64,000 bases of DNA from Amylostereum areolatum (lineage: Eukaryota; Basidiomycota; Agaricomycetes; Russulales; Stereaceae). A program made the position numbers and the translations under genes. This document shows, in pieces, positions 540 to 59,934 of the stretch. Under the pieces are notes generated by a model. That model saw only the letters and a program-made list of their open reading frames with translations. It ran no database searches and was not told the origin of the DNA. The first letter of the stretch is position 1; every line of letters begins with the position of its first letter. Location of the stretch: the NCBI GenBank assembly GCA_012932865.1, contig SAXG01000006.1:1178001-1242000 (forward strand). Direction: 5' to 3'.

Positions 540-661
540 TGTTGAAATAAGGCTAAGCCCTGGCCTGTTGCACACAATCAGAGCTCGGTGATATTCTCTA
601 TATCAACTACCAACCTGTTCCCACTATCGGACAGGTAGCTCAGTTGGTTAGAGCACCCTTC

Positions 662-1112
662 TGTTGAAGATATTCGTTTATGTCTGATTTCTACGCCTTT
701 ATTCTGTTCTATCTCCCTTCTATTCGCGTCTATTCCGCTCCATTCACCCTATTATCATCTAATTCCGCGTCTATACCCTCACATGCCCTCTCCACTTCAC
801 CCACTGTTCGCTATTGTACTGTACTTACTGTAGTTCAGCCTGAGCTAGCTTCCCTAGCTTCAGTTTCGAGTTAGTTACCGCTTTAGGTCGATTCTCGGCT
901 TATTCCGAGTTTCCTCCCACGCTCCATGGCCTCTACCTGCAGCCACACGCGTCTGCTCCTCCTCAGTCGCTCATTCTGTGCTGCAGGTATGCCCTTTGCT
1001 CGTTTCTGTCTTGTTTCTCAGTCGCTCATTCTGTGCTGCAGCAATCCACTGTTTGTGTCAGTTCTGAGCGTCCCTAGCTAGTTGGCTAGCCCCTTCAACT
1101 GCGACTTCAACA
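662..1112 (+). repeat. copia-1 LTR (451 bp)
   Basis: The LTR runs from TGTTGAAGATATTCG to GCGACTTCAACA. It contains an internal direct repeat, CAGTCGCTCATTCTGTGCTG, in two copies about 55 bp apart; the LTR at 3885-4280 has kept only one. By eye it matches the LTRs at 10383-10833 and 15871-16321 throughout. Confidence 0.85.
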
Positions 1113-1131
1113 GGTTATGGGCCCTGCGCTC
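1113..1131 (+). promoter_or_regulatory. copia-1 primer-binding site (half-tRNA type)
   Basis: Directly after the LTR is GGTTATGGGCCCTGCGCTC. Its complement, GAGCGCAGGGCCCATAACC, matches the D-stem edge and anticodon stem-loop of eukaryotic initiator tRNA-Met (CAU anticodon inside CCCATAACC), not a tRNA 3' end. Drosophila copia uses such a 5' half-molecule of initiator tRNA, and I infer the same here. Confidence 0.7.
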
Positions 1132-1702
1132 TAGCCAACATCCATCGCTTTTATCTCGCCTCACAGCACCCCCCTCGCCTCGTCCTTCTACACACCTCTC
1201 CTACCATCCCTAGAGGCCCCAGCCCTCGAGTTTCAAGTCGAACGACCCATCCGTCGCCTCCCAACGCCATCCCCATCCTCCAGGGCGCGCATTTCGCAAC
1301 ATCAAGCGCGCACGCAACGCCCCTTCATCCGTTCGCCTCGCCCTTGCATATTCCGCATCTACTACTCCCTATCCAACTTCGTGCCAAGCCCCAAGGCCGT
1401 CGCTTTTGTCGCTGCGCGTCCACAGCCTGTGACGCTTCCTCCTCCTCCTCCCACAAACATCAAAGGCGCCCTCAGCGCCCCTTCAACCGTTTGCTACCTC
1501 GCTTCGCGTCAGCCCTCCCTACCACCCTTCTAGAATATGGGAGGTCCTGGGTTCAATCCCCGGCCAGTCCACTTTGTGTTTCACTTTATGACTGAAGGTC
1601 CCTCTGTGTTTTCAACATGGTAGCAGCACCCGCCTTCATGATTACTGTTGGGCACAAGTGGCGAGTGCCTAAGATCACATCAGGCCTGGTCTTACGGGGG
1701 TG

Positions 1703-1911
1703 TGTTGAAATAAGGCTAAGCCCTGGCCTGTTGCACACAATCAGAGCTCGGTGATATTCTCTATATCAACTACCAACCTGTTCCCACTATCGGACAGGTA
1801 GCTCAGTTGGTTAGAGCACCCTTCTAGAATATGGGAGGTCCTGGGTTCAATCCCCGGCCAGTCCACTTTGTGTTTCACTTTATGACTGAAGGTCCCTCTG
1901 TGTTTTCAACA
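1703..1911 (+). repeat. TRIM LTR (209 bp) with embedded tRNA-like sequence
   Basis: This is the intact 3' LTR of TRIM copy A. It starts TGTTGAAATAAGG, has a TATAT motif about 30 nt before the tRNA-like segment, the tRNA-like segment at 1792-1864, and ends GTGTTTTCAACA. The final TTTT is the only T-run that could end a Pol III transcript. Sequence matches the LTRs at 16723-16931 and 17017-17225. Confidence 0.8.
1792..1864 (+). tRNA. tRNA-like sequence in TRIM LTR
   Basis: These 73 nt fold as a class I tRNA cloverleaf. The acceptor arm GGACAGG/CCAGTCC has one A-A mismatch, the D arm is normal, the anticodon stem CCCTT/ATGGG has one T-T mismatch, the loop is CTAGAAT (apparent anticodon AGA), the variable loop has 5 nt and the T arm is CTGGG/CCCGG. 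The A box TAGCTCAGTTGG and B box GGTTCAATCCC fit the Pol III consensus. AGA would be a serine anticodon, yet the short variable loop is wrong for tRNA-Ser. I therefore read it as a captured tRNA-derived Pol III unit, not a working tRNA gene. Confidence 0.6.
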
Positions 1912-8033: not shown

Positions 8034-8484
8034 TGCTCCGGAGTATTCTGGACACGGCCAAGACTTAGCCCAGAACACAGTGACTGCTCGGCAAATATGT
8101 AGAGCCATTTCTGGTAAAACACTTGGTAGAGCACTGTGACAAGATTTGTGAATTGTTTAGGCAATTTCAATACAAGTATGGGTCTAGCAGCAATGTAGAG
8201 ACTCACCAAGGCATCCTGGACACCGCCAAAATTTTGCCTAAGATAGGGACCACTCTGTGAATATGTAGAGCTCTTCCTAGTGAGATATCTAGTATGATAC
8301 CACCAACAGGATTTGTGAATTGTTTAGGCTCATTCCAATGCAAAGGTAAGTCCAGTGGTAACACAGGGACATTGTAAGGACCTCTAGATACCACCAAAAT
8401 ATAGTATAATATGGAAGGACTACTTAGTAGATATGTAGAGCCTATGTTAGGGACAACCCTTGTAGAGCACTCCCTTATGTGTTA
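8034..8484 (+). repeat. Tandem units, left arm of a large inverted repeat
   Basis: About three units of roughly 165 bp follow each other. Each has a CTGGACAC(C/G)GCCAA-like part and a TATGTAGAGC motif; the first two also carry GATTTGTGAATTGTTTAGGC (near 8143 and 8312). The part from 8196 is the left arm of an imperfect inverted repeat whose partner is 8969-9262. Confidence 0.65.
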
Positions 8485-8968: not shown

Positions 8969-9262
8969 TACCAGTTTATAAGGAGTGCTCTACAGGGGTT
9001 GTCCCTGACATAGGCTCTACATATCTACTAATTAGTTCTTCTACATTATACTATATTTTGGCAATATATAGGGATCCTCATAGTGTCACTGTGTTACCAC
9101 TGGACTTGCCTTTGCATTGGAATGAGCCTAAACAATTCACAAATCCTGTTGGTGGTGTCATACCAGATATCTCACTAGGAAGAGCTCTACATATTCACAG
9201 AGTGGTCCCTGTATCCTAGGCAAAATTTTGGTGGTATCCAGGATACCTTGGCAAGTCTCTAT
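8969..9262 (-). repeat. Right arm of the large inverted repeat
   Basis: The reverse complement aligns with 8196-8484 over its whole length at roughly 90 percent identity by eye. It includes the shared block GTGAATTGTTTAGGCTCATT and the TATGTAGAGC motifs. Confidence 0.7.
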
Positions 9263-10382: not shown

Positions 10383-10833
10383 TGTTGAAGTCGCAGTTGA
10401 AGGGGCTAGCCAACTAGCTAGGGACGCTCAGAACTGACACAAACAGTGGATTGCTGCAGCACAGAATGAGCGACTGAGAAACAAGACAGAAACGAGCAAA
10501 GGGCATACCTGCAGCACAGAATGAGCGACTGAGGAGGAGCAGACGCGTGTGGCTGCAGGTAGAGGCCATGGAGCGTGGGAGGAAACTCGGAATAAGCCGA
10601 GAATCGACCTAAAGCGGTAACTAACTCGAAACTGAAGCTAGGGAAGCTAGCTCAGGCTGAACTACAGTAAGTACAGTACAATAGCGAACAGTGGGTGAAG
10701 TGGAGAGGGCATGTGAGGGTATAGACGCGGAATTAGATGATAATAGGGTGAATGGAGCGGAATAGACGCGAATAGAAGGGAGATAGAACAGAATAAAGGC
10801 GTAGAAATCAGACATAAACGAATATCTTCAACA
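10383..10833 (-). repeat. copia-1 3' LTR
   Basis: A 451-bp LTR with TGTTGAAG and CTTCAACA ends. The GGGGGAG polypurine tract lies directly upstream on the minus strand. Confidence 0.9.
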
Positions 10834-10840
10834 CTCCCCC
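10834..10840 (-). promoter_or_regulatory. copia-1 polypurine tract
   Basis: GGGGGAG immediately precedes the 3' LTR on the minus strand, the position expected for the plus-strand primer. The same tract precedes the LTR at 17268. Confidence 0.75.
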
Positions 10841-10852
10841 GTGATGAGACGC

Positions 10853-13800
10853 CTACTCGAGTCCCATCATCTCCCTGCAGCGCACAACGCGCTCACGAGG
10901 CAGCGCCTTCGTCAGGATGTCGGCCGGCATCTCGTTTGTCCCCACAAACTTGAGAACAATCCGGCCGGCCTCCACTTCGTCTCGCAGCCAGTAGAAGCGC
11001 AGGTCGAGGTGCTTCATGCGTCCATGATGCTCGGGATTCTTTGAGACGTTGATAGACGACTGATTGTCCGAGTACAGGAGCGAAGCGCCCTCGACTGTGT
11101 AGCCAAACTCAGAGAGCAGGTTGCGCATCCAGACGATCTCCTTGCCAGCCTCGACGGCAGCAATGTACTCCGCCTCGGTCGTCGACTGTGCGACGAGCGA
11201 TTGGAGGCGAGAGCTCCAGCTGACAGCGCCAGAACCAATGCGGACGAGATACCCGCCTGTGGAGCGGCCATTGTCGACGTTTCCGCCGTGGTCCGAGTCT
11301 GTGAAGGTGGTGAACAGCTCGGAGTCGTCGGTCGGCCTGTACACGAGCTTCAAGTCCTTCGTGCCCTGGAGGTACTTGAACAGATGCTGGACGGCGCGCC
11401 AATGCTGAGGACCTGGGTCCGAAATGAAGCGGCAGAGATTGGAGACAGTGTAGGCGATGTCTGGACGGGTCGCAGTCGCGATGTAGAGCAGGGAGCCGAC
11501 GGCGCTGCCATAGGGCACCTTTTGCATGAATTCGCGCTCAGAAGCGTTCTGGGGCGACATGGCCTTCGTCAGACGCGAGCCAGGAAGCATAGGCGTGGTG
11601 ACAGGGTGGCAGTCGGCGTGATTGTAGCGCGCAAGCGTGTCGATGATGTACTGGCGCTGGGAGAGGAAGAGGGTGCGAAGGGAGCGGTCTCGAGTGATGT
11701 GGATGCCAAGGAGGAAGGAGGTGGGGCCGAGGTCTCGCAGCTTGAAGTGCGTGCGAAGAGTGGCGATGATCTCGTCGAGAACAGGCTCCGAATTCGACGC
11801 CAGGGTGCCGTCGTCGACGAAGACAGGGAGGAGAACGCGCACAGCGTCGCGCTGGAGCACGTAGATTGACGCGTCGCTGTAGATGCAGCGGAATCCCATC
11901 TTGTCGCACAGGACCTCCATCAGCTTGATCTTCCACAGGCGAGCGGCCTGCTTGAGGCCGTAGATCGACTTCTGCAGCTTGCAGACCGCGCCAGGAGGAC
12001 CCTCCTCGAAGCCTTCAGGCTGCTTCATGTAGACCTCCGCATCGAGGTCGCCATTGATGAAGGCATGGGAGATGTCGATGGAGCGCAGGTGGAGATCCTC
12101 GACGGCGGCGAGGGCGAGGACAGTGCGGATGGCCTGGAACTTGGCAGTGGGAGCGAAGGTCTCGAAGTAGTCGAAGCCAGGACGCTGGGCAAAGCCCTTC
12201 GCGACGACGCGCGCCTTGTAGCGCTCGATGGAGCCGTCCTCCTTGCGCTTGACCTTGAAGACCCAGCGCGATGCGACGGCGTGCGCGCCAGGGGGAAGGG
12301 AAGCGATAGACCAGGTGCCATTGGCTGCATGCGCGTCGAGCTCCTCTCTGCACGCTGCAAGCCACATCTCCGCGTCTGGACGCTGCATAGCCTGCCTGTA
12401 GGAGAGCGGCTCGCCGTCTGCGGATAGAAGGGCAGTCTCCAACGCGGTGTGGATGGCAAAGGCGGCCTCAGGCGTCTCCTGCGCAGAGTAGACGTCGTCA
12501 TTCGCCCACGGCTCAGGAGAGTCGCTGTGAGCATCGTCCTCCTCGTCGGATTCGACTGCAGGAAGCGGCTCGCGCACTTTCGCCTTGGAGGGCACTGGTT
12601 GAGGCTGCCAGCTGTTCGATCGCGCCTTGACCACGGCGTCGCGCGTGCTACGGCGCAGAGGACCGGTGGGCGAGGCGGCGCGCTTCCTCCCTCGAGGAGC
12701 AGGCCGCGAAGGACCCGCATGTGGAGAGGGAGGTGCAGGATCGGCTGCAGGCGGCGCAGGAGCGGGATCGGCCGCATCCTGATCATGCTCATCAGCAGGC
12801 GGAGCTGGAGGCAGAACAGGCTCGTCTTGCTCAGCAGAGGACGAGTCGTCGTCTCCCCCGGCATCCAGCACCGGCTGAGAGGGAGCAGGCTCCGATGGAG
12901 GCGGAGGAGGGAAGAGGGGAGCGGAAGGCGAGGGCAGGAGCGGCTTGTTGAGCCTGGAGCGAGGGAAATCGCGCTCATCAAAGTCGGCGCGCTCGCAAAT
13001 GATGACCTTCTTCGCTATAGGGTCCCAGAACTTCCAGCCTTTGTACCCCTCCGGATACCCGATGAAGGCGGCCTTCACCATGTGCGGCTGCAGGCCCTTG
13101 CGCTTGTCGCGCTGGATATGGACGTATGCGGTGCATCCCCACACGCGCAGACGACTCACATCCGGCTTGGACCCGTGCCAGAGCTCGAAGGGCGTGGTGT
13201 GCGCCTTGATGGCGGCGGTGGGCAGGCGGTTGCGGACGTGGATGTAGGCACTGAGCGCTTCTCCCCAGAAAGACGCAGGCAGGCCGGACTCCGCAAGCAT
13301 CGCGGTGACACCCTCCTCAATGGTGCGATTTGCACGCTCCGCCACGCCGTTCTGCTGAGGGCGATTGCGCGTCGTATGACGGCGCTCGATCCCGTGCAGC
13401 GAACAGAACTCGTCCATGTTGCGCCCCATGTACTCGCCCCCCTTGTCGTCCTGCAGCGCGAGCAGCTTCTCGCCTGTCTGCTTCTCGGCCCACGCTTTGA
13501 AGTCCTTGAACGCCTCGTACTGGTCCGACTTCTTGCGAAGCAGGTAGACGGCGTAGAAACGCGAGGCGGCGTCGATGTAGAGGACCCAGTAGCGATAGCC
13601 AGAGGCGGTGCGGACTGGAAGCGGACCGTGCAGGTCAGAGTGGACGAGGGCGAGGCGCTTTGTGTAGACGGTGGTAGAGGAGGGGAACGGGTCGGCATGC
13701 ATCTTGCCAGCGAGGCAGGGCTCGCAGATAGGGTCGGGCTTCTCTAACGAGTTGAAGACGAGACCGGTGACGAGATTCTCGCGCACTATGCGCTGGAGAC

Positions 13801-15163
13801 CAGCGTGGTTGAAGTGAGCCAGGCGGCGGTGCCATAGGGACGCGTCGAGCGGCGTAGAGGCGGCGAGCGCGGCGGATAGGGCGTAGTGCGACGCTGTAGA
13901 GGTGGAACCATCGAGATAGGCGGTGTTCGCATCGTTGATCGTTGCAGTGAACCACACAGCGCCGTCCTTAGCGAAGGAGACGCGGCTCCCCTTGATGGTG
14001 ACGACGAACGCCTTATGCTTCGCAAGGTAGAGGACAGAGAGGAGATTATTGCGAAGATGGGGAACATGGAGGACTCTAGTAAACTCGACGGCACCCTGCG
14101 CCTTTCCTGCTACAACCGGATTGAACACCACTGAACCGACTCCTGCACTGTACACCGTCTTTCCGTCTGCGAGGCGAATGGGCGTGCGAAGGGGACGGTA
14201 GGAGGCGAAGAAGTGGCGATGCGGGGTCATATGAGACGTGGCGCCGGTGTCTGCATTCCAATCGACGTCAGCATCGAGCTGCAGCGGCGAGAGGGGGTCG
14301 GAAGGAGCGACACTTGCGGATGCAGCGCTGCCAGCGTGTTCGCCAGCAGGATTGAAGCCGTCAGACGACGACGAAGCGGCGTTGGCCTTGTCCCCAAGGC
14401 GAGAACGCAGGTCCTTGATCTGCTTCTGATAGCAGGTCTTCTCCTCGTGCCCGCTCTTCTTGCAGAACGCGCAAGTGAGACGTGGACGCGAGGACTGCCC
14501 CTTGGCCTTGCCAGATGCGCCAGACGACGACGCACTGAGCGCAGACGAAGCGTCCGGCTTGAAGAACTCGGGGTTGCGCTCCCTGTTGGTCTCCTCGCGC
14601 ACAAACGCGTCCTTGACGCTGTCGGGGTCGAGCTTCTCGAGCAGGAGGAGGGAGGAGACGAAGGAGGAGTACTCCGAGGGGAGGGCGCGGATGTACGCCA
14701 TGGTGGTGAGCTCCTTGTCGAGCTCCTCGAGGGTGAGAGACGCAGGGCGAAGGGAACGAATGCGACGCATAGCATCGTCGACTCGCGTCGCCATAGCGAG
14801 CAGGGACTCGTCCTCCTTCTTGCGGACATTGAAGAGGTCGTCATACGCGTTGAAGCGCGCGCCAGGCGCCTTCTTGACGTGCAGCGCCTCGAGCTTCGTC
14901 CACATAGCAGGGGCGTCGCGCCTAAGGTCGTCCACAGGACCTCGCTGGTCCTTGGAGATGAGGAGGTAGATGGCACCCCCAGCCTTGGAGCAGATCGAGG
15001 TGTACTCCTTGAGGGCGGCAGCAGCAGTATCCGCCGGCTTGGACGTCTCCCCCAGCACTACAGCGTCCCAGCCCTTGGTCTGGAGCCAGGCCAGAACCTC
15101 GTTCGACCAGTCCTTGTAGTTTTGGCCGGTGAGAGCGTCGATTTTGGGGATAGAGTCGGACAT
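10853..15163 (-). CDS. copia-1 Gag-Pol polyprotein
   Basis: One frame of 1,436 codons from MSDSIPKIDALTGQ encodes all copia functions in Ty1 order. There is a UBN2-like Gag (about 1-200), a CCHC zinc knuckle at 231-244 (CAFCKKSGHEEKTC), an aspartic protease with DTGATSH at about 305-311, and an integrase with a HRRLAHFNHAG/CEPC zinc-binding part and a core around VHSDLHGPLP, DDKGGEY and RPQQNGVAERANR. A proline-rich linker, RT with VFVDDG, and RNase H ending in TKALPRERVVRC follow. The frame is open upstream to a further ATG at 15328. I prefer the start at 15163 because Gag homology begins there. No shift or stop separates gag from pol. It probably assembles cytoplasmic particles and integrates cDNA in the nucleus. 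Confidence 0.93.
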   Translation of the reverse strand: MSDSIPKIDALTGQNYKDWSNEVLAWLQTKGWDAVVLGETSKPADTAAAALKEYTSICSKAGGAIYLLISKDQRGPVDDLRRDAPAMWTKLEALHVKKAPGARFNAYDDLFNVRKKEDESLLAMATRVDDAMRRIRSLRPASLTLEELDKELTTMAYIRALPSEYSSFVSSLLLLEKLDPDSVKDAFVREETNRERNPEFFKPDASSALSASSSGASGKAKGQSSRPRLTCAFCKKSGHEEKTCYQKQIKDLRSRLGDKANAASSSSDGFNPAGEHAGSAASASVAPSDPLSPLQLDADVDWNADTGATSHMTPHRHFFASYRPLRTPIRLADGKTVYSAGVGSVVFNPVVAGKAQGAVEFTRVLHVPHLRNNLLSVLYLAKHKAFVVTIKGSRVSFAKDGAVWFTATINDANTAYLDGSTSTASHYALSAALAASTPLDASLWHRRLAHFNHAGLQRIVRENLVTGLVFNSLEKPDPICEPCLAGKMHADPFPSSTTVYTKRLALVHSDLHGPLPVRTASGYRYWVLYIDAASRFYAVYLLRKKSDQYEAFKDFKAWAEKQTGEKLLALQDDKGGEYMGRNMDEFCSLHGIERRHTTRNRPQQNGVAERANRTIEEGVTAMLAESGLPASFWGEALSAYIHVRNRLPTAAIKAHTTPFELWHGSKPDVSRLRVWGCTAYVHIQRDKRKGLQPHMVKAAFIGYPEGYKGWKFWDPIAKKVIICERADFDERDFPRSRLNKPLLPSPSAPLFPPPPPSEPAPSQPVLDAGGDDDSSSAEQDEPVLPPAPPADEHDQDAADPAPAPPAADPAPPSPHAGPSRPAPRGRKRAASPTGPLRRSTRDAVVKARSNSWQPQPVPSKAKVREPLPAVESDEEDDAHSDSPEPWANDDVYSAQETPEAAFAIHTALETALLSADGEPLSYRQAMQRPDAEMWLAACREELDAHAANGTWSIASLPPGAHAVASRWVFKVKRKEDGSIERYKARVVAKGFAQRPGFDYFETFAPTAKFQAIRTVLALAAVEDLHLRSIDISHAFINGDLDAEVYMKQPEGFEEGPPGAVCKLQKSIYGLKQAARLWKIKLMEVLCDKMGFRCIYSDASIYVLQRDAVRVLLPVFVDDGTLASNSEPVLDEIIATLRTHFKLRDLGPTSFLLGIHITRDRSLRTLFLSQRQYIIDTLARYNHADCHPVTTPMLPGSRLTKAMSPQNASEREFMQKVPYGSAVGSLLYIATATRPDIAYTVSNLCRFISDPGPQHWRAVQHLFKYLQGTKDLKLVYRPTDDSELFTTFTDSDHGGNVDNGRSTGGYLVRIGSGAVSWSSRLQSLVAQSTTEAEYIAAVEAGKEIVWMRNLLSEFGYTVEGASLLYSDNQSSINVSKNPEHHGRMKHLDLRFYWLRDEVEAGRIVLKFVGTNEMPADILTKALPRERVVRCREMMGLE

Positions 15164-15851
15164 AATGAGGAATTGGAGAGGATATACGCAAAAAGCGACG
15201 ATTTGGACGAGCAGAGGTTCGAGGGGGCGCCGAGGGCGATGGGATAGGGCGATGGGGGCGGGTACGACGGCGATGGGGAGGGTGGATGGTCTAGATGGAG
15301 GCCTGAAGAGCGCGTACCGATAGCACAACGCGATGGGAAGCTACACTCGTCCGATCCCAAGGTGAAAATTTCTCGAAACAGCCTCCTGCAAACAACGAGC
15401 TCCTGAGGGCGAACGGCTTCAGCGACGGCTACCGCGTTTGGCGAGGGGGTAGGTAGGGTGGTAGGGAGGGCTGACGCGAAGCGAGGTAGCAAACGGTTGA
15501 AGGGGCGCTGAGGGCGCCTTTGATGTTTGTGGGAGGAGGAGGAGGAAGCGTCACAGGCTGTGGACGCGCAGCGACAAAAGCGACGGCCTTGGGGCTTGGC
15601 ACGAAGTTGGATAGGGAGTAGTAGATGCGGAATATGCAAGGGCGAGGCGAACGGATGAAGGGGCGTTGCGTGCGCGCTTGATGTTGCGAAATGCGCGCCC
15701 TGGAGGATGGGGATGGCGTTGGGAGGCGACGGATGGGTCGTTCGACTTGAAACTCGAGGGCTGGGGCCTCTAGGGATGGTAGGAGAGGTGTGTAGAAGGA
15801 CGAGGCGAGGGGGGTGCTGTGAGGCGAGATAAAAGCGATGGATGTTGGCTA
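15164..15851 (-). other. copia-1 untranslated leader
   Basis: About 690 nt lie between the primer-binding site and the preferred gag start. The first 394 nt after the primer site are also present in the truncated copy at 1132-1525. Packaging signals would be expected here, but no specific motif was identified. Confidence 0.6.
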
Positions 15852-15870
15852 GAGCGCAGGGCCCATAACC
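15852..15870 (-). promoter_or_regulatory. copia-1 primer-binding site (half-tRNA type)
   Basis: Adjacent to the 5' LTR, minus strand GGTTATGGGCCCTGCGCTC. It is complementary to the anticodon stem-loop region of initiator tRNA-Met and identical to 1113-1131. Confidence 0.7.
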
Positions 15871-16321
15871 TGTTGAAGTCGCAGTTGAAGGGGCTAGCCA
15901 ACTAGCTAGGGACGCTCAGAACTGACACAAACAGTGGATTGCTGCAGCACAGAATGAGCGACTGAGAAACAAGACAGAAACGAGCAAAGGGCATACCTGC
16001 AGCACAGAATGAGCGACTGAGGAGGAGCAGACGCGTGTGGCTGCAGGTAGAGGCCATGGAGCGTGGGAGGAAACTCGGAATAAGCCGAGAATCGACCTAA
16101 AGCGGTAACTAACTCGAAACTGAAGCTAGGGAAGCTAGCTCAGGCTGAACTACAGTAAGTACAGTACAATAGCGAACAGTGGGTGAAGTGGAGAGGGCAT
16201 GTGAGGGTATAGACGCGGAATTAGATGATAATAGGGTGAATGGAGCGGAATAGACGCGAATAGAAGGGAGATAGAACAGAATAAAGGCGTAGAAATCAGA
16301 CATAAACGAATATCTTCAACA
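15871..16321 (-). repeat. copia-1 5' LTR
   Basis: A 451-bp LTR that appears identical to 10383-10833 over its whole length. Confidence 0.9.
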
Positions 16322-16722
16322 ATGGCCGCTCCACAGGCGGGTATCTCGTCCGCATCGGTTCTGGCGCTGTCAGCTGGAGCTCTCGCCTCCAATCGCTCGT
16401 CGCACAGTCGACGACCGAGGCGGAGTACATTGCTGCCGTCGAGGCTGGCAAGGAGATCGTCTGGATGCGCAACCTGCTCTCTGAGTTTGGTTACACAGTC
16501 GAGGGCGCTTCGCTCCTGTACTCGGACAATCAGTCGTCTATCAACGTCTCGAAGAATCCCGAGCATCATGGACGCATGAAGCACCTCGACCTTCGTTTCT
16601 ACTGGCTGCGAGACGAAGTGGAGGCTGGCCGGATTGTTCTCAAGTTTGTGGGGACAAACGAGATGCCGGCCGACATCCTGACGAAGGCGCTGCCTCGGGA
16701 GCGCGTTGTGCGCTGCAGGGTG
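16322..16722 (+). pseudogene. copia-1 RNase H remnant
   Basis: Sense-strand copia-1 sequence begins abruptly within RNase H (NGRSTGGYLVRIGSG region) against the LTR of the opposite-strand copy; both sides share CAATGG-like microhomology. The frame continues through STTEAEYIAAVEAGKEIVWM and SDNQSSINVSKNPEHHGRMK to LTKALPRERVVRC, where a TRIM interrupts it. The copia-1 end resumes at 17226. Everything upstream of RNase H is absent. Confidence 0.85.
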
Positions 16723-16769
16723 TGTTGAAAACACAGAGGGACCTTCAGTCATAAAGTGAAACACAAAGT

Positions 16770-16842
16770 GGACTGGCCGGGGATTGAACCCAGGACCTCC
16801 CATATTCTAGAAGGGTGCTCTAACCAACTGAGCTACCTGTCC
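16770..16842 (-). tRNA. tRNA-like sequence in TRIM LTR
   Basis: The same 73-nt cloverleaf as at 1792-1864, with intact A and B boxes and apparent anticodon AGA. It sits in the 3' LTR of TRIM copy B. Probably not a functional decoding tRNA. Confidence 0.6.
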
Positions 16843-17063
16843 GATAGTGGGAACAGGTTGGTAGTTGATATAGAGAATATCACCGAGCTCTGATTGTGTG
16901 CAACAGGCCAGGGCTTAGCCTTATTTCAACACACCCCCGTAAGACCAGGCCTGATGTGATCTTAGGCACTCGCCACTTGTGCCCAACAGTAATCATGAAG
17001 GCGGGTGCTGCTACCATGTTGAAAACACAGAGGGACCTTCAGTCATAAAGTGAAACACAAAGT

Positions 17064-17136
17064 GGACTGGCCGGGGATTGAACCCAGGACCTCCCATATT
17101 CTAGAAGGGTGCTCTAACCAACTGAGCTACCTGTCC
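17064..17136 (-). tRNA. tRNA-like sequence in TRIM LTR
   Basis: The copy in the 5' LTR of TRIM copy B, identical to that at 16770-16842. A Pol III transcript from here would run to the TTTT at the LTR end, just before the primer-binding site. Confidence 0.6.
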
Positions 17137-17225
17137 GATAGTGGGAACAGGTTGGTAGTTGATATAGAGAATATCACCGAGCTCTGATTGTGTGCAACAG
17201 GCCAGGGCTTAGCCTTATTTCAACA

Positions 17226-17711
17226 GGGTGATGATGGGACTCGAGTAGGCGTCTCATCACGGGGGAGTGTTGAAGATATTCCTTTATGTCTGATTTCTAC
17301 GCCTTTATTCCGTCCTATCTCCTTTCTATTCGCTTCTATTCCGCTCCATTCACCCTCTTATCGCCTCATTCCGCGTCTATACCCTCCACATGCCCTCTCC
17401 ACTTCACCCAGTGTTCGCTATTGTACTGTACTTACTGTAGTTCAGCCTGAGCTAGCTTCCCTAGCTTCAGTTTCGAGTTAGTTACCGCTTTAGGTTGATT
17501 CTCGGCTTATTCCGAGTTTCCTCCCACGCTCCGTGGCCTCTACCTGCAGCCACACGCGTCTGCTCCTCCTCAGTCGCTCATCCTGTGCTGCAGGTATGCC
17601 CCTTTGCTCATTTCTGTCTTGTTTCTTAGTCGCTCATTCTGTGCTGCAGCAATCCACTGCTTCTAAGCATTTCTAGCTAGCTGGCTAGCCCTTTCAACTG
17701 TGACTTCAACA
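17226..17711 (+). mobile_element. copia-1 3' end and 3' LTR
   Basis: After the TRIM, copia-1 resumes with GATGATGGGACTCGAGTAGG, the tract GGGGGAG and a 444-bp LTR (17268-17711, TGTTGAAG to CTTCAACA). This LTR differs from those of the full-length copy by substitutions and small indels, so it belongs to an older insertion. Confidence 0.85.
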
Positions 17712-19645: not shown

Positions 19646-19854
19646 TGTTGAAAACACAGAGTAACCTTCAGTCATAAAGTGAAACACAAAGTGGACTGGC
19701 CGGGGATTGAACCCAGGACCTCCCATATTCTAGAAGGGTGCTCTAACCAACTGAGCTACCTGTCCGATAGTGGGAACAGGTTGGTAGTTGATATAGAGGA
19801 TATCACTGAGCTCTGATTGTGTGCAACAGGCCAGGGCTTAGCCTTATTTCAACA
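19646..19854 (-). mobile_element. TRIM solo LTR
   Basis: A single 209-bp TRIM LTR flanked by a perfect 5-bp target duplication GTGGG (19641-19645 and 19855-19859). It carries about four substitutions against copy B, for example GAGGATATCACTGAG in place of GAGAATATCACCGAG. This is the expected product of LTR-LTR recombination of a full TRIM. Confidence 0.9.
19693..19765 (-). tRNA. tRNA-like sequence in TRIM solo LTR
   Basis: A 73-nt tRNA-like cloverleaf unchanged from the other copies, although the surrounding LTR has substitutions. A and B boxes are intact. Confidence 0.6.
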
Positions 19855-34385: not shown

Positions 34386-37300
34386 TTACCCCCCTTTGAG
34401 GACGCTTTCGCCTAGAGCGTGATGTCATCTGCAAGGGTGGATGTGAGAAAATCGTCAAAGGAGATGCCGAGGGAACGCACAGGGCGGGGCGCATTTGGAT
34501 GGTGCTTGTAGAAGGCGTCAATCATGTTGATAACCTTTGAGAGCGATGAACACGGGAGCCAGGTGTTTTCGGAGTTGGGATAGCCGGCCTACTTGACGAG
34601 GTACTGAATACCTTTCTTGTTACGGGTTGGCTTGGAGTGGACAATGTCTTCAATGTCGTATTCTTCTCCATCGTCAATGAGGTCTGGTGGCGGCTGTTCG
34701 TAATTTGGCCCGTGAGTGGCTGTCTCCTTGTACACGGTGAGCAACGAGGCATGGAAGACTGGATGGATTCGCCATGTCTTTGGCAGCTTCAAGTGGTAGT
34801 TGACTGGGCTGATGACGTCAATGATCTTGAAGGGTCCAAATCGTTTGGCGGCAAGCTTAGCTTTCGGTCTCGTCATCTTCAGATTCTTGCCTTCTAGCCA
34901 TACTTTGTCTCCGACGGCAAACTGCATTGATTTGCTGACTGTGTCACCATTGTAGTGCTTCATCAAGTCTGATGCGAGGGCGAGGCTGGCCTTGATCTCC
35001 TGTCGGACTTCTTCAAGTTGACGGAGGCATTCTTCAACTGCAGGGACCTTTGAGGACGGGTTTACAGACGGGTACATCTTCGGGAGGAAACCATAGAGGA
35101 CTTCAAAGGGAGCCTTTCCAGTAGCTGCATGGGTGCGAGAGTTGTGAGAAAACTCGAAGAAGGGCAACCACTTCACCCAGTCGTCTTGACGGTAGTTGCA
35201 GAATACTTGCAGGAACTGCTCGAGGTTCTGGTTCTCGTGTTTGGTTTGGCCGTCTGTCTGGGGGTGATACGCCGTGCTGAGAGTGGACTTGATCCCGAGC
35301 TTCTCATTGAGTGTACATATCACCTGTCCAGCGAATTGGGGTCCACGATCTGAGATGATCTTGTCTGCTAAGCCGTAGTGTCGGTATACCTTGTCGAAGA
35401 GGATGTCGGCCACGCCATCGCTGGTGATCTTTGTCGTGCATGGGGTAGTAACTACCATCTTGGTGAGGCGATCAACCACGACGTTGATGGTGTTATAGCC
35501 TTCGCAGTCAGGGAGCTCGACAATAAAGTCGGTAGAGATGACACCAAATGGTTGATCAGGTACTTCGTTTGAATCATGTCAATGTGGGGTCAGCTGCTCT
35601 GCGTCTTCGTCAACTGGCAGGTTGCGCATCCTGCTAAGAAGTCGCGGACAAAGACAGACATGCCAGGCCACCAATATTCATGACTCACAAGTTCGTAGGT
35701 CTTAAAATGACCAGGGTGTCCAGCCAGGGGCGATTCATGGTACATTTTGACAATGTCATGTCGCAACTCGTCATCTGCAGGGACATATACCTTTCCTCTG
35801 AACAGGACTAGGCCTTCTTCATAGTTCCATTCCTGGAGATTCTTGACGAGTGTACGTGGTCCATTTTGTAAGATGATATCCAGGGCTTGAACGACCTCAA
35901 TGTCCTTGGTTTTGCAGTCACAGATATGTCATCGGAGTTCGACATCGCCGAGGGGGGTTACTGCTCCTGGCCTTGTTGCGCGTACCTGGAAGTACTTGGG
36001 GTCAAGCAAGACGCACTCCTTGTTGTCGTTTTCAACGCCATACTTGTGATCGGGTCGTCGAGACATTGGATCCGGGCAATGGGATATTCCTGGTTTGTGA
36101 ACGAGCGAAAAGTCAAATCGAGTGAGGAACAGAGCCCAACATGCTTGTCGGCGGCTTAGCTTCTGCGCCATCTTGAAGTGCTCCAGGTTCTTGTGATCCG
36201 TCCAGATTTCGACGGTGTCGGGGGCACCTTCAAGGTAGTGGCATCAGGCTTCAAGTGCACGGATGATCGCGAGTAGCTTCTTGTCGTAGAGGTCATAGTT
36301 GTGTTCCGGTTCTGATAGGGCCTTGGACAGATACACCACCGGGTGCCAGTGGCCATCGTCGCCTTTCTGCAAGAGTACACCTCCAGTAGCAAAGTCCAAG
36401 GCGTCGACTTCAACGAGGTAAAGCTTCTTTGGGTCAGGCATGACCAAGATAGGGGAGGAAGTAAACACAGCTTTCAGTGCGTCAAACGCAGTTTGGCAGT
36501 CCGTCGACCAGTCCCATGTGCAGTCCTTCTTTGTCAGGTCAAATAGGGGTCATGCAACCTTGGAGAAGTCCTTGATGAAACATCAGTAGAAGTTGCCGAA
36601 GCCGAGGAAGGATTGCACATCTTTGACCGTTCGTGGTGTCGGCCAGTCCTGAATACCCGCTACCTTGACGGGGTCCATAGCGAGCTTGTCGTGCGAGATG
36701 ATGAGTCCGAGGTATTCAACGGAGTCTTGCTCAAAGACACATTTCTCCGGTTTGAGGAAGAGGTTGTTGTCTTGCAAACATTTCAGAACCTGCCGCACTA
36801 TGGCACCGTGCTCGTCCGTGGTGCGAGTGAACACCAAGATGTCGTCCATGTAGATAATGACCTTGCCCGAGTTGATGAGATCCTTGAACAGTTCATTCAT
36901 CATTGCCTGAAATGTTGTAGGGGAGTTCATAAGCCCGAAAAACATCACTGTAGGTTCAAAGATACCGCAATTTGTCTTGAACACAGCCTTCCACTCGTTG
37001 CCTTCCTTGATGCAGACATTGTTGTAGCCCCAGCAAACATCCATCTTTGAGAAGATCTTGGCACCTTTGAGGCGGTCGACAATTTCTGAGATCAGTGGCA
37101 AGAGATACTCGTTCTTGATGGTGCCCTTGTTCAGCTCTCGATAGTCCTGTACAGGCCGCAGCTTCCCATCCTTCTTTTTGACAAAGAAGAACGGACTTGC
37201 CTGTGGTGACTTCGACGGGTGGATGTAGCCCTTCTTCAGGTGGTCATCGAGGAAGGTGTCGAGCTCAATCTGCTCGGAGGGGGAGAGCGGATAGATCTTG

Positions 37301-37892
37301 CAGGGCTTGGATTTGAAGCCATCCTTCATGTCGATGGCATGATCCCATGGTTGTCGGTCGGGTAGTCGTTCAGAGGTTTTCTTGCTGAATACAGGTGTAA
37401 AGTTGCAGTATGGAGGGGGGGCCAAGTCTTCAAAGGTTTGCGGGCGTGCATTTTCCTTCGAGTTCTCTGCAAGTTCTTGTGCCTTGGTGAAGCCCGTGCG
37501 GATTGATACTGCCTCAAGGTTAGGGCCGTCAACTTCAGGAAGGATCCCAGCATGATGTAGGCCATTAATCTCCCAGTCTCGGAAGACCCTGGGTCGTTTG
37601 TCGTCATCTTCAGTGAAAAGCTGGGCAGGTAGAGGTGAGAGATGGATTGTGCAGATACGAACATCTTTGACCCTGCGCACGGGGATGACATACGTAGGGA
37701 TAGGGGCCCAGGAGACATACACTGATTCTAGGAAGGGGTCGTCCGGGACTAGAGGTACCTTAGGGGCCTCGTCGACTCGAACCTTTTGCTGTGATCGGGT
37801 CAACGGTGGTGTTTGCGGCTTTGTTTCAAGGTTTGTCACAGTCGGTTCGGAGAGGGTATAGGAGGGAGGGCAGCGGAGCATGTCAACACGAT
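34386..37892 (-). pseudogene. gypsy-1 pol (RT, RNase H, integrase, chromodomain), broken
   Basis: Protein order on the minus strand: linker after the protease (37.88 kb), RT with RPVQDYRELNKGTIKNEY and IYMDDILVF (about 37130-36830), RNase H with VEVDALDFATGGVLLQKGDD (about 36400), integrase with KIISDRGPQFAGQV and STAYHPQTDGQTKHENQNL (about 35370-35230), and a C-terminal chromodomain around GIQYLVK. Reading is broken by stops, including TAG at 34589-34591 inside the chromodomain (TGG in the 63-kb copy) and a TGA near 35929 matching an Arg codon there. Not functional. Confidence 0.88.
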
Positions 37893-50087: not shown

Positions 50088-51289
50088 GTGGTTAAATACC
50101 AGGACGAGCGCGAAGTCCCCGACGACAAACTGGCCGACAAGGTCTGCATGTACATCGCGGACAAGGTCACCAACGACTGGGTACGCGCAAACTGTGCCCT
50201 AATCAAAACCCTCTCCTTCAGCGCCTTCTTCGCCCTCGTCCGCCCTTGCCTCCTCGGTCACAACTGGGATGCCAAGCTCTACACCAGCATCTCGTCAAAG
50301 ACTCAGGGCTCGATGCCGTTCGAAGCCTTCGCTCGGCCAATGCTCACCTCACCGGGTCGCCGCTCCACATGGACGACGCTATGCTCATGATCACCATCCA
50401 ATCCCGCCTCAACATCGACCTCCTCGAGATGGTCACCAACGCGACCTCCCAGGGCGTTGTCCAGCCGCTGACCCCTGACCTCTGGTTTACGCAGGTCAAC
50501 GATCTCAACCTTGCGCGCATCAAGTTGGTCAAGTCCGCCAATGCCGCTGCTCGCTCCGCGCACGCCGGCACCTTTGGCAGCAGCGCTAACATATCGGGAT
50601 CTCGCACCGCCTCGTCCTCCCGCCCGTCGTCTTCACAGTCCCGCCCGTCGTCCTCGCAGAACCAACAGACCACCGGTCGCCCTCGTGCGATGCCGCTGAA
50701 GCTCACGGAGGACGAACGCTCCCTCCTCATGACCCACCAGGGATGCTTTGGGTGCCGCAAGTTCTATGCGGGACACATGGCATCGGACTGCCCTTCCAAG
50801 TCCTCGCCCCCGCCGGCCGACACGCCTGTCATCACCAGCTCCATGGCCGCTGCCGCCAAGGCCGCCTTCGATCGCAGACAGGGGAACCCGCCTGCCATCC
50901 CAACGACAAACGCGATCCTGGTCGACGGAACTGAAGACTACACGTACCCCTGCGTCCTCGACGAGTACGTGGTTCCTCCTTCGCCCCTGTTCCCCCTGTG
51001 CACCGCTACGTTATCGACGGCACCGCGCCCCCCTTCGCCCTTGCCCAGCTCTTTGCGCGCACCCGAACCACCCTCCCCCATCCGTGCTCGTTCTCCTTCC
51101 TGCACGGATGACTCCCCCCTTGTTGCGGAGCTGCTATTGTGGCACGCAGTTGTCGACGGCCCCGGTTCCACACGTGCCGCTGCTGCACTTATTGATGACG
51201 GCTCCCAGGTCGTACTAGTGCGCGAGAGTGTTGTTTCCGCCCTCGGCCTTCGACGCCACTGCCTCCCGAAGCCGATGCCCACTGCCTCA
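50088..51289 (+). pseudogene. gypsy-2 gag and protease part
   Basis: The first frame (from 50088) reads DKVTNDWVRANCALIKTLSF and SSKTQGSMPFEAFA, then coding sense moves to another frame near 50325 (SANAHLTGSPLHMDDAMLMI), a 1-nt shift. It continues with a zinc knuckle CFGCRKFYAGHMASDC and a protease-like motif ALIDDGSQVVLVRESVVSAL (about 51190). At about 51289 the sequence jumps directly into reverse transcriptase in a different frame. The rest of the protease and the N-terminal RT are deleted. Confidence 0.8.
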
Positions 51290-54077
51290 AATGGTAATCA
51301 ACTACCGACAACTCAATGCCAACACTATTCCCGACAAGTTCCCCCTCCCACGCGTTGACGATATCCTTGCCGACTGCGCGAAGGGGAAGATCTGGGGTAA
51401 AATGGACATGACTAACTCGTTCTTCCAGACGCGCATGCACCCTGACGATGTCGCCTTCACCGCGATGACAACACCGCTTGGCCTGTACGAGTGGCTAGTC
51501 ATGCCCATGGGGTGCCGCAATGCACCATCAACGCACCAACGCCGCATGGTGGCCGCCCTACGACACCTCATTGGCCGTATCTGTCATGTGTATCTCGACG
51601 ACATCATCATCTGGAGCCAGAATATCGACGAACATGTCACCAATGTCCAACTGGTGCTCGACGCCCTCCGTGCGGCGTCCCTCTTCTACTCGCTAAAGAA
51701 GACGGCGCTGTTCTGCATAGAACTCAACTTCCTTGGCCACACCATCTCCGCGAAGGGAATTGAGGCCGACACCTCGAAAGCCTCCCGCATCTCCGACTGG
51801 CCTGTCCCTCGATGCGCGCGCGATGTGCGGTCATTCCTGGGACTCGTCCGATATCTCGCCAACTTCCTTCCGGGCCTGGCTGAGCACTCGTGGATACTCA
51901 CGCCGCTGACGATGAAGGAAGCCGACAAGGCCTTCCCCACCTGGACGCCCACGCACCGCCTCGCCTTCGATGCCATCAAAGCCCTCGTCATCTCACGTGA
52001 CTGTCTGACCACTATAGACCACCAGAACCCGGGCGACAACAAGATATGGGTCACAACAGACGCCAGCGATTTCCGTACCGGTGCCGTCCTCTCATGGGGC
52101 CCGACATGGGAAACTGCCCAGCCAGTCGCCTTCGACTCATATGCCCTCCATGGTGCCGAACTGAACTACCCGGTGCACAACAAGGAACTTTTTGCCATCG
52201 TGTTGGCGCTGTGTAAGTGGCGAACTGATCTACTCGGGGCCGAGTTTATCGTCCGCACTGACCACCGCACGCTTGAGAACTTCCTGACACAGCGCGACCT
52301 CTCCCGCCGCCAAGCGCGTTGGCAGGAGTTTTTTGCTGACTATGATTTCTCCATCTCCTACGTCCCGGGCGAAGAGAACACGGTCGCCAACGCACTTTCT
52401 CGCCTCCCGGCTGGCCTTGACTCACCAACATCCCCCCTGTTTGCAGTGTGCGCCCTCTCCCTTTCCTCCCTGCCTCCCGTAACCGCTGCGACGACGGTCA
52501 CCCTGCACGCTAACCCGTCGGTCCTGGCCGACATTCGCACTGGTTACAAGACGGACCCCTTCTGCGTCCGGCTCCATGACAACATTGACAGCGTGGTTGG
52601 TGCATCGATCTCAAAAGACCAGCTCCTGTTCATCGGCACCCGCCTCGTCATCCCTCGCTACCAGAAACTCCGCCAAACGCTCTTTGAGCTCGCGCACGAC
52701 TTGCTCGGTCACTTTGGAATCGACAAGTGCTATTCTGCACTCCGTGACTCGTACTACTGGCCGACCATGCGTGCGGACTTGGCCAACATCTATCTTCCTG
52801 CGTGCGCAGACTGCCAACGAAACAAGTCCTCCACCCGCCGCCCAACTGGTCCCCTTCACCCGCTCGCTGTCCCCGATCCGCGTGGCTCCAACATTGCGAT
52901 CGACTTCGTCGGGCCCCTCCCGGAGGAGGATGGCTACGACTGCATCGCCACTGTCACTGACCGCGCGGGCGGCGACATCCGCCTCATACCCTGCCGGACG
53001 ACTTGCTCTGCCGAGACTTTCGCGGCACTCTTCTTTGAACGATGGTACTGCGAGAACGGCCTGCCGACAGAAATCGTCTCCGACCGGGACAAGCTCTTTG
53101 TCTCCGGTTTCTGGTGCGCACTGAACCGACTAACCGGTGTCAAGCTTGCCATGTCCTCCTCATACCACCCCGAAACCGACGGCGCCAGCGAGCGGACAAA
53201 CAAGACTGTTATCCAATGCCTGCACTTCCATGTCAACCGGCAGCAGCAAGGCTGGGTGAAGTCCCTGCCCCGTGTCCATTTTGAGCTGATGTCGACCGTT
53301 AATGCGTCCACAGGTTTCTCGCCTTTCCAGGTGTACCTTGGGCGCTCGCCTCGTCTGATTCCCCCCTTCACCGCCAACCTTTCCTCCTCGACCCGTGTCG
53401 ACTACGCCTCGGATGCCGTTCACGCCGAGGCCCTCCTCCGTCGAATCGAGACCGACTTCCAGCAGGCCTCGGATTCGCTCCTTGGCGCCAAAGCTGACCA
53501 GGCCGCCTTCGCCAACCGCCGCCGCTCACCCAAAATCCCTTACACTGAGGGCGACCGTGTGCTGCTATCCACCTTCCACCGCCGCCGCGATCTCAAGGCC
53601 TGCGACCCGACGCGAGTCGCGAAGTTCATGCCGCGTTTTGATGGACCCTATGTTGTCAAGCTGGCAAACCCCGCGAGATCATCTTATACTCTTGACATGC
53701 CCGCCCACCCTAACCTTTTCTCCACCTTCCATTCCAGCCTTCTCAAGCCCTTCCTCGAGCCAGACCCGGAGCTCGCTCCCGACCACGTCCTATCCCGCCC
53801 CGCGCCAGTCGTCCTCGCCGACGGCTCGGAGGAGTACCTCGTCAATAGCATAGTTGACGAGCGTACCTTCCGCCGGTGCAAGCAGTACCTCGTCACCTGG
53901 CGAGGCTACGGGCTCGAGGACTCACAATGGATCAATGCCATCGAACTCGATGACAATGTGGCGCTCGACGTATGGGAGGCCCGGAGTCGACCCTCCACCC
54001 CCCGCCGCCGTCTGCGCTCGATCAAGTCTGCTTGCGCTGCCAACTCACCGCCCGTTCGCGCTACCCGCCGTCGTTGA
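51290..54077 (+). CDS. gypsy-2 Pol: RT, RNase H, integrase, chromodomain
   Basis: A long uninterrupted frame (open from 51228; homology from about 51290). RT starts mid-domain at VINYRQLNANTIPDKFPLPR and includes the catalytic YLDDIIIW. RNase H follows (VTTDASDFRTGAVLSWGP, RTDHRTLENFL), then the integrase HHCC and core (LLGHFGIDKCYSALRD, CADCQRNK, IDFVGPLP, EIVSDRDKLFVS, SYHPETDGASERTNKT) and a C-terminal chromodomain (YLVNSIVDERTFRRCKQYLV, TWRGYGLEDSQWI). The chromodomain would direct integration to marked chromatin. The missing N-terminal RT part and lost frame link to gag make the protein non-functional as it stands. Confidence 0.88.
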
Positions 54078-57766: not shown

Positions 57767-58564
57767 ACGTTAAAAACTCCCACCACGGACCTCCCGAACG
57801 CACCGGTCTTCCTCCCGTTCAACGGAAAGCCGATCACCCCCCGCGACGACGCACCACTCCCCTACCCTTGGTCCGACGCCGTCACCGCCAACTGCCTCGT
57901 CCCCGTACAGAACCTCTGCAAGAAAGATCCCTGGACCGCGCACAGCCTCAACTTCCGCATCTTCGAGTGGAGGTGGCACAAGGATCACGGTACTGTCGTC
58001 CTCGCCCTATACGTCCGGATCACTACGTGCATCAACGTAGATCTCGAACGCCTTGAATTCACCCTCCACGCCCCCACCTACCACACATACCTCATCCAAG
58101 ACGCCCCCAACCCGATCCTCCAAACCAGTTTCACCTCCGTCTCCCAGTTTAACCGCTGGACCCCCAAATCCACCCCGCCACCAGTCCTCCGTCCCACCAT
58201 CAAGGGTAAGACCCTTCGTCGCCGCCACCACGAACATAAGATCCGCCAGGCAGTAAAAGCCGGCTACCTCACCAAGAAACTCCTCGGCCGTCGCCCCATC
58301 ACGGCGGACTTCTTCTAGACCATCATCACGTCCTCCACAGCCCCTCGTCCCCCCACTCCGAACCTCCCCCCAGGCGTTTTTCGAGACTACTGTCCCGAAG
58401 AATACTATATCCTCACCTCGCAGCAGGCTAAGGAATCCGTACGTTGGCTGCACGACGAACCAAACCGGCAACGTCGAGACTGGTACTTCGACGACCGCGA
58501 CGAACAACCCTACGTCGAAGAATCGGATTTTGCCACCGCTGCGGACGTTCTCAGCGCTTCCTGA
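57767..58564 (+). pseudogene. gypsy-1 upstream ORF / Gag N-terminal extension
   Basis: The frame begins at ACG (57767), where copy P has ATG. It encodes LPFNGKPITPRDDAPLPYPW, LVPVQNLCKKDPWTAHSLNF, RIFEWRWHKDHGTVVLALYV and ends DFF-TAG at 58316-58318, as in copy P. The frame is open again after the TAG (PPGVFRDYCPEEYYILTSQQ) until TGA at 58562. A 1-nt deletion relative to copy P just before that stop separates it from gag. I see no known domain. It could be a separate small protein, or the N-terminus of a Gag made by TAG readthrough. Confidence 0.55.
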
Positions 58565-59934
58565 ACCCCCCTCCGACCAACTCGCCCCCACCCCGTCGAC
58601 GTACTGTAGTCGAAGTCCCAGAAGGGATCAACCACAACGACACAACTGGGAAGTGGTACGCCTATAGACGGAACAAGAACGGAACCCCAGGACGATCAGT
58701 AGTTGAGTGGCAGCCCACTTCGTTCAGTCCCGTCCAAGATCACTGGTCGTGGCATCATAATCAGCAATTCCTCACCCCCGCCGACTTCCTTGTCGCAAAA
58801 CAAGTTGAGGACGAAGTTGAAGAAGCAGAAGAACGCCGACGAGAAACCCTACGCCGCCTTGATCAAGAACTCGCCCAATCCCTCACCGTCCCCCTCCCCT
58901 TCGACAAGATGTCCGACGCCGAATCCAAACCTGCCGTCTCCAAGCGGGAGATCGGCCCCAAGCCAAAGCCATTCAAAGGCGATAGACGCGACACCCTCCG
59001 ATTCTCCCTCGAGCTCCGCATGTTCCTGCGCGTTAACAAGGATGTTTATGCCACAGATGACGCCAAGATGATGCTCCTCCTCAGCCTGATGGAGGACGAC
59101 ACAGCGAAAGCCTGGGCCATGCATCGCCGCATGGAACTCTTCGCCGACGAAGACGAGAAGGAAGACGCCGAAACCCTCGACCCCACGCCCCCAACACTCC
59201 ACTATAGCTCCTACAAAGAGCTCTTCGAGAGGTTTGGCAAAGACTTTGTGCCTGTCGATCCGAAGATAGAGGCTCAGCGTAAGATCAACGAGCTCGCAAT
59301 GACCACCCGGGACGTCACTGACTTTATCACCGAGTTTGAGATGCTGGCAACCATGTCAGCGTACGACGACGAGGCGCTAATCCACTTTTTCAAGAAGGGA
59401 CTTCAGCGTGACCTCGGCAAGCAGGTGGCCCGGTCATACCCGTTCCCCACCAAGCTCGTGGAGTGGAAGGAGCGCGCCCGCCGCATCAACCACCAGTGGC
59501 TCGAAGAGAACCCGGAGAGGAAGAGCAGTCAGTCCAAGGGGGCTGTCGCGCTCACCTCGAACGGTTCGACCAACGACTCCTCGTTGTGCCGAGTCGGCGC
59601 CTTCACCAACACCTCGACCCGCCCTGCAAAGCTGACGGACGACGAGCGCGCAAAGATGATGCGCGAAGGCAAGTGCTTCATGTGTCGACAAGCCGGTCAC
59701 GTCTCTCGCGACTGCCCCAACCGCGACTCGAGCGCGCGACGGGTGGGCGCAGTAGAGACTGGGTCCAAGGCCCCTCCCCTGCCGACGAACACGGCTCCGT
59801 CCACTGCGAAAGCAGCTCCCGACCCATCCAAAACCATTGCGGCGATCACTCGCCAGCTGAAGGATCTGGACGCGGAAGGCAAGGAGCAGGCAGTAGCGCT
59901 GTTGAAGGACATCCTGGAATCGCAGGATTTTTGA
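58444..59934 (+). CDS. gypsy-1 Gag
   Basis: The frame from 58444 (homology from about 58558, NPPPTNSPPPRRR) encodes a linker (GINHNDTTGKWYAYRRN), the basic motif GPKPKPFKGDRRDTLRFSLE, a Retrotrans_gag-like capsid region (MMLLLSLMEDDTAKAWAMHR, YKELFERFGKDFVPVDPKIE, TTRDVTDFITEFEMLA, IHFFKKGLQRDLGKQV) and one CCHC zinc knuckle CFMCRQAGHVSRDC near residue 410. The C-terminus is Ala/Pro-rich and ends IAAITRQLKDLDAEGKEQAV before GAT-TTT-TGA. The annotated ATG lies in a shifted stretch and is probably not the native start. It forms the particle shell and binds RNA. Confidence 0.8.
   Translation: MAARRTKPATSRLVLRRPRRTTLRRRIGFCHRCGRSQRFLNPPPTNSPPPRRRTVVEVPEGINHNDTTGKWYAYRRNKNGTPGRSVVEWQPTSFSPVQDHWSWHHNQQFLTPADFLVAKQVEDEVEEAEERRRETLRRLDQELAQSLTVPLPFDKMSDAESKPAVSKREIGPKPKPFKGDRRDTLRFSLELRMFLRVNKDVYATDDAKMMLLLSLMEDDTAKAWAMHRRMELFADEDEKEDAETLDPTPPTLHYSSYKELFERFGKDFVPVDPKIEAQRKINELAMTTRDVTDFITEFEMLATMSAYDDEALIHFFKKGLQRDLGKQVARSYPFPTKLVEWKERARRINHQWLEENPERKSSQSKGAVALTSNGSTNDSSLCRVGAFTNTSTRPAKLTDDERAKMMREGKCFMCRQAGHVSRDCPNRDSSARRVGAVETGSKAPPLPTNTAPSTAKAAPDPSKTIAAITRQLKDLDAEGKEQAVALLKDILESQDF

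Follow-up and report, generated by a model that had tools for sequence, protein, structure and literature searches.

A TRIM element whose LTRs each carry a tRNA-like unit, and its possible Copia partner, in the genome of Amylostereum areolatum

The element and its tRNA-like unit

At positions 16723-17225 of the window (the whole 64-kb stretch of DNA that was analysed, C139:1178001-1242000 in a 57.13-Mb assembly of 182 contigs), direct reading revealed a 503-bp element made of two 209-bp LTRs and an 85-bp interior. The sense strand of the element is the minus strand, its primer site running from 17016 downwards and its purine tract lying at the 16932 end. The 5' LTR (17017-17225, minus strand) begins with TG and ends with CA, and the 3' LTR (16723-16931, minus strand) is the same at 209 of 209 nucleotides. 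The interior (16932-17016, minus strand) contains the primer binding site TGGTAGCAGCACC (17004-17016, minus strand), which pairs over 13/13 nucleotides with the 3' end of the genome's initiator tRNA-Met, CCA included. At its other extremity, directly before the 3' LTR, the tract ACGGGGGTG (16932-16940, minus strand) is purine-rich with two pyrimidines. The interior is short and without coding capacity, and the whole element remains below 1000 bp. The sequence GGGTG was found on both sides (16718-16722 and 17226-17230) and constitutes the target site duplication (TSD). Apart from the sense strand, which is a correction, these features agree with the first-pass annotation of this DNA, which had described the LTRs with their TG/CA ends, the two interior sites and the duplication.

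Two other members of the family were present in the window. A solo LTR with the TSD GTGGG was seen at 19646-19854 (minus strand), as had been announced. The second copy (540-1911, plus strand) had been described as having the same structure; however, its 5' LTR is interrupted by a Copia piece of about 860 bp (663-1522), and no TSD is formed by its outer flanks, CACCT and ACATG. This Copia piece corresponds to one LTR and about 410 bp of interior and is located inside the tRNA-like unit of the TRIM LTR; the repeat that borders it (CACCCTTC) measures 8-9 bp, not 5 bp.

Each LTR of the element at 16723-17225 contains a 74-nt tRNA-like unit oriented as the element itself (17063-17136 in the 5' LTR and 16769-16842 in the 3' LTR, both on the minus strand), recognised by ARAGORN and by the Rfam tRNA model (RF00005). 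In the 64-kb window, ARAGORN made four tRNA calls, all of them tRNA-Ser(AGA) and all inside LTRs of this TRIM family, and each of the four units scored 56.1 bits with RF00005. The Rfam search of the LTR gave tRNA only and no 5S rRNA-derived sequence. The unit has an AGA anticodon, a short variable loop, an A box (TAGCTCAGTTGG) and a B box (GGGTTCAATCC). When it was fitted to the tRNA model, the acceptor stem and the anticodon stem each had one mismatched pair; furthermore, its free fold was not unusually stable (z -1.25), 26 of 200 shuffled sequences folding equally well. Because of these mismatches and of this unremarkable fold, the "intact" cloverleaf initially proposed for each LTR was slightly generous, while the tRNA-like unit and its two boxes were recovered.

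The label given by ARAGORN would fit a tRNA-Ser(AGA) gene that is functional and dispersed by the element. However, the genuine tRNA-Ser(AGA) genes sampled were 82-83 nt long, against the 74-nt body observed here, in which no long variable arm is joined to the serine anticodon and two stem pairs are mismatched. This explanation was rejected and appears very improbable. Among the cellular tRNAs sampled (63 of 1,434 scan candidates were scored), the closest was a tRNA-Ile(AAU), which was the same at 50 of 74 positions. When the parent tRNA was searched for in the genome, a first D-arm pattern gave no match and a second one gave six places, all of them tRNA-Ile-type D arms. We infer that the tRNA-like part acts as a promoter and not as a tRNA for translation. 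For genome annotation, every LTR of this family yields one false tRNA-Ser(AGA) call.

Two features of the assembly are also of interest for tRNA genes. Two tRNA-Ile genes on different contigs (L014 and L024) have common flanks, and the assembly may contain both haplotypes or large duplications. AT-rich clusters of mitochondrial-looking tRNAs were found on C85, C87, C150, C151 and C77 (L011-L013 and L027-L038), some of these contigs exceeding 0.8 Mb; they may represent mitochondrial DNA copied into the nucleus, or else chimaeras created during assembly.

Copies and their distribution in the genome

A 50-mer taken from the tRNA-like part was found at at least 166 places in the genome with up to three mismatches, and the first 52 nt of the interior at at least 55 places; the reversed 50-mer and the control of the interior gave none. 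Eighty loci were fetched, consisting of all 55 interior places and of 25 LTR places without full interior, the latter drawn from the 100 listed of the 166 LTR places (two of them, L096 and L097, carry interior remnants). One locus without a complete LTR pair (L049) was excluded. After merging of equal flanks, 68 distinct flank pairs were obtained, from which 10 were excluded from the TSD count, as an end of the element was missing, leaving 58 distinct complete insertions.

A perfect 5-bp TSD was present in 47 of these 58 insertions (37 full copies and 10 solo LTRs). By comparison, only 19 of 4,556 mismatched flank pairs gave a 5-bp match, and chance or local duplication alone was rejected as the origin of the copies. 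The paired LTRs and TSDs expected by the first-pass annotation are thus found across the genome. In the 346 kb of loci collected (overlaps included), the LTR pieces devoid of the tRNA-like unit were truncated or split ones only, which does not bear out a local insertion of this unit in the copies of the window.

Blocks carrying copies have been duplicated in C56, in C1 and among C72, C158 and C134, as would be expected if all copies were segmental duplications of one locus, never retrotransposed. Nevertheless, 47 distinct sites with their own TSDs remained after equal flanks had been merged, and this possibility is negligible. The LTR pairs were identical in 43 of 49 full copies, which points to a recent burst of retrotransposition. 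Of 138 complete LTR rows, a count that comprises overlapping loci, 100 had the same sequence as the LTR of the window. The family has been amplified by a recent retrotransposition burst and enlarged by block duplication.

Eleven insertions had no TSD. One of them (L097, labelled solo by the script) is a truncated copy with an interior remnant, and three others (L070, L098 and L115) are rearranged. L098 (C96:533929) and L115 (C96:535344) are opposed LTRs about 1.4 kb apart whose 5-bp flanks (GTTTG and TGACA) are reciprocally swapped, the pattern expected after an inversion between two opposed LTRs. L070, on C56, is a recombinant of two insertions, sharing its left flank with L068 and its right flank with L071. 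A different arrangement was observed for L042/L043 (C32:62626-63626), where a TRIM lies within the end of the LTR of another TRIM and forms a tandem pair with the TSD GTTTT.

Judged by eye, the 47 sites showed no strong target motif. A preference for Copia sequences as target was rejected: 22 of the 58 insertion sites (23 with another end rule) lay in the family of the Copia element resident in the window, and this family accounted for 32% of the bases at least 300 bp away from the insertions (12,507 of 38,656), so that the excess is small.

The interiors were distributed over 19 contigs, 16 of which carry at least two. All six interiors of C56 were contained in 24 kb of 954 kb, all five of C139 in 52 kb of 1.43 Mb, and all four of C1 in 12 kb of 3.1 Mb. 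The span of the interiors was below random at P < 0.05 in 11 of the 16 contigs (uncorrected and with duplication ignored); clustering was not significant in C41, C72, C134, C148 and C165, some of which are short contigs. The clustering is not absolute, since two LTRs without interior on C76 are at least 220 kb away from the only interior of that contig.

The Copia-rich clusters in which the copies reside are possibly centromeres, by analogy with Ganoderma leucocontextum, in which a Copia element with a 427-bp LTR is reported to be confined to the predicted centromeres of all chromosomes (PMC10817607). This family, GlCEN427, is a Copia with LTRs of about 430-450 bp that occurs in one repeat-rich region per chromosome, and such a region resembles, by description, the islands of TRIM and resident Copia. 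Unlike the TRIM, it is autonomous.

Retroelements are likewise abundant in the right part of the window. It contains a Gypsy-type integrase/SH3 region (34592-35479, minus strand), a reverse transcriptase (36586-37881, minus strand), a 949-aa open reading frame (ORF) with chromodomain-bearing relatives (51228-54077, plus strand) and a gag ORF (58444-59934, plus strand). In the left part, a 229-nt inverted repeat (8245-8473 and 8982-9210), 92% complementary with its arms 508 nt apart, is possibly the remnant of a DNA transposon.

Helenus, the resident Copia and the initiator tRNA-Met

TRIMs with tRNA-like LTRs were named Helenus (TRIMp3) by Kojima 2024 (PMC10886601), where they are reported in fungi including Agaricomycetes, in animals and in one lycophyte. 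The first-pass remark that the family was not known to be described therefore applies, at best, to this one sequence family, as the kind has been published. A search of the literature on tRNA-carrying TRIMs gave, among the matches listed, only that paper and a meeting report of 2026 in which it is cited (PMC12859917).

Like Helenus elements as described (PMC10886601), the element is smaller than 1000 bp, with an LTR pair, a non-coding interior, a primer site directly after the 5' LTR and a purine tract directly before the 3' LTR, and each LTR bears a tRNA-like unit with an A box of the form TRGCY...YGG (TAGCTCAGTTGG) and a B box containing GGTTC (GGGTTCAATCC). The fungal Helenus elements are characterised there by 5-bp TSDs and Copia-type primer sites, and the Helenus anticodon is in conflict with the tRNA body; here too, 5-bp TSDs, solo LTRs, a conflict between anticodon and body, and a host among the Agaricomycetes were found, whereas the link to Copia is a possible one. 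By its structural defining features the TRIM fits Helenus, the named families having been compared by description. It differs from Helenus as reported in that its copies are clustered and a partner-like Copia of the same islands has its primer site elsewhere on the same tRNA. The first-pass annotation was right in reporting a TRIM whose LTRs each hold a tRNA-like unit, and in its analogy to plant Cassandra (PMC7215508). Cassandra, too, is a small LTR element that is non-autonomous and has an internal promoter of the Pol III type in its LTR; as it carries 5S rRNA there, and not a tRNA-like unit, the present element is no member of it.

A Copia element resident in the window (10383-16321, minus strand), the LTRs of which are identical over 451/451 positions, is a candidate source of proteins for the TRIM. 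Its ORF of 1491 aa (10853-15328, minus strand) gave gag and RVT_2 above the Pfam cut-off and the integrase core below it, and no 5-bp TSD was found at this copy. In protein searches, the named fungal relatives of this ORF and of a Gypsy ORF of the window were mostly from Agaricomycetes. The TRIM and the resident Copia have in common a TGTTGAA start, a TTCAACA end and an ACGGGGG(T/A)G tract. When this link is set against the Copia link of fungal Helenus (as described in PMC10886601), termini and purine tract are shared, but the priming site is another one and no exact stretch longer than 10 nt is common to the two elements.

The initiator tRNA-Met gene was identified in the genome by ARAGORN (Met, CAT); it occupies six places, two of which were fetched. 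By inspection, a variant present at two of the six (L133 type) pairs with 12 nt only of the TRIM primer site. In the resident Copia, the primer site is complementary to the anticodon arm of this tRNA over 17/17 nucleotides. Both modes, on the anticodon arm and on the 3' end, are reported for fungal Copia and Helenus elements (PMC10886601). From the sequences, what appears to be new here is a TRIM primer site directed to the 3' end of the initiator tRNA-Met while a resident Copia with matching termini would use the anticodon arm.

The partner of the TRIM could then be a second, unseen Copia also priming on the 3' end of this tRNA, and not the resident one, which primes on the anticodon arm instead. 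Such an arrangement would reproduce the situation reported in rust fungi, where TRIMs and partners have matching primer types and Copia-39_PHord primes on the 3' end of the initiator tRNA-Met (PMC10886601). Nevertheless, a genome search for the junction of CAACA with TGGTAGCAGC gave 52 matches, all of them this TRIM and none a Copia, and TGGTAGCAGCACNNNND was found at four places, none immediately following a CA end, these patterns being blind to a Copia whose match is shorter, whose LTR ends differently or that has a C at the excluded position. Taken together, we give a second Copia a little less than an even chance. A single Copia machinery that uses the initiator tRNA-Met in two ways, by its anticodon arm for its own RNA and by its intact 3' end for the TRIM, both elements sharing Copia-rich islands that mostly number one per contig and may be centromeres, is a more tentative proposal, which we regard as rather unlikely in this complete form.

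Transcription and the proposed cycle

The motif TATATC (17161-17166, minus strand), located 30 nt upstream of the tRNA-like unit, is a candidate TATA box compatible with Pol III or with Pol II. In 17 sampled tRNA genes, whose flanks include near-duplicates (L014/L024 and L020/L021), a TATA was present between -35 and -20 in 4, which counts against the Pol III reading. On the sense strand, the only runs of at least four T in the element are the TTTT at LTR position 201, one per LTR. That of the 5' LTR (17022-17025, minus strand) is a possible weak Pol III terminator and that of the 3' LTR (16728-16731, minus strand) a candidate RNA 3' end. As a T5 or longer run was found within 60 nt in 16 of the 17 sampled nuclear tRNA genes, the single T4 of each LTR may be leaky.

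Across the 19 variant LTR sequences (138 complete rows, 20 distinct sequences, repeats from overlapping loci included), changed sites amounted to 7/74 in the tRNA-like part, 18/89 upstream and 5/46 downstream, and 2 of the 11 sites of the B box were altered. The variation does not clearly spare the tRNA-like part, a result neutral to slightly against strong constraint.

These observations bear on the possibility that the element is an ordinary TRIM driven by Pol II, in which the tRNA or SINE inserted in the LTR is a fossil without role in transcription. The TATATC might serve Pol II as its TATA box, the variation among LTRs does not clearly avoid the tRNA-like part, and Pol III would have to read through the T4 of the 5' LTR. 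Against this, the unit scores 56.1 bits and has both an A and a B box, and the same boxes are conserved in the published Helenus families (PMC10886601); we hold a Pol II-driven element to be unlikely. Pol III transcription is suggested by these sequence features, and its use by Helenus was left unproved in the account of Kojima 2024 (PMC10886601).

The element is probably a fungal Helenus (TRIMp3), that is, a non-autonomous LTR retroelement with a tRNA-derived internal promoter in its LTR. In the most likely cycle, Pol III would start near LTR position 90 after binding of TFIIIC to the two boxes, A and B. The single T4 of the 5' LTR would be passed by a fraction of the polymerase, which would end at that of the 3' LTR. 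From the positions of these only T-runs, the terminal repeat (R) of the resulting RNA would measure about 115 nt and its U5 5 nt. The initiator tRNA-Met, whose complementarity to TGGTAGCAGCACC is observed, would prime minus-strand DNA at this site, and reverse transcriptase and integrase would be supplied in trans by a Copia element, as suggested by the shared termini, the purine tract and the 5-bp TSDs. Integration would then proceed with the 5-bp duplication seen at 47 independent sites.

If one Copia with two priming modes does serve both elements in shared islands, dozens of tRNA-type promoter units would accumulate in candidate centromeric chromatin. In the genome of this mushroom-type fungus, a Helenus family that is compact and was active very recently lies beside an intact Copia whose ends match its own, and the genes of the initiator tRNA-Met have been identified. 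Two points left by the Helenus paper thereby become testable, namely transcription by Pol III and the dependence of a TRIM on a partner with a different LTR and primer site.
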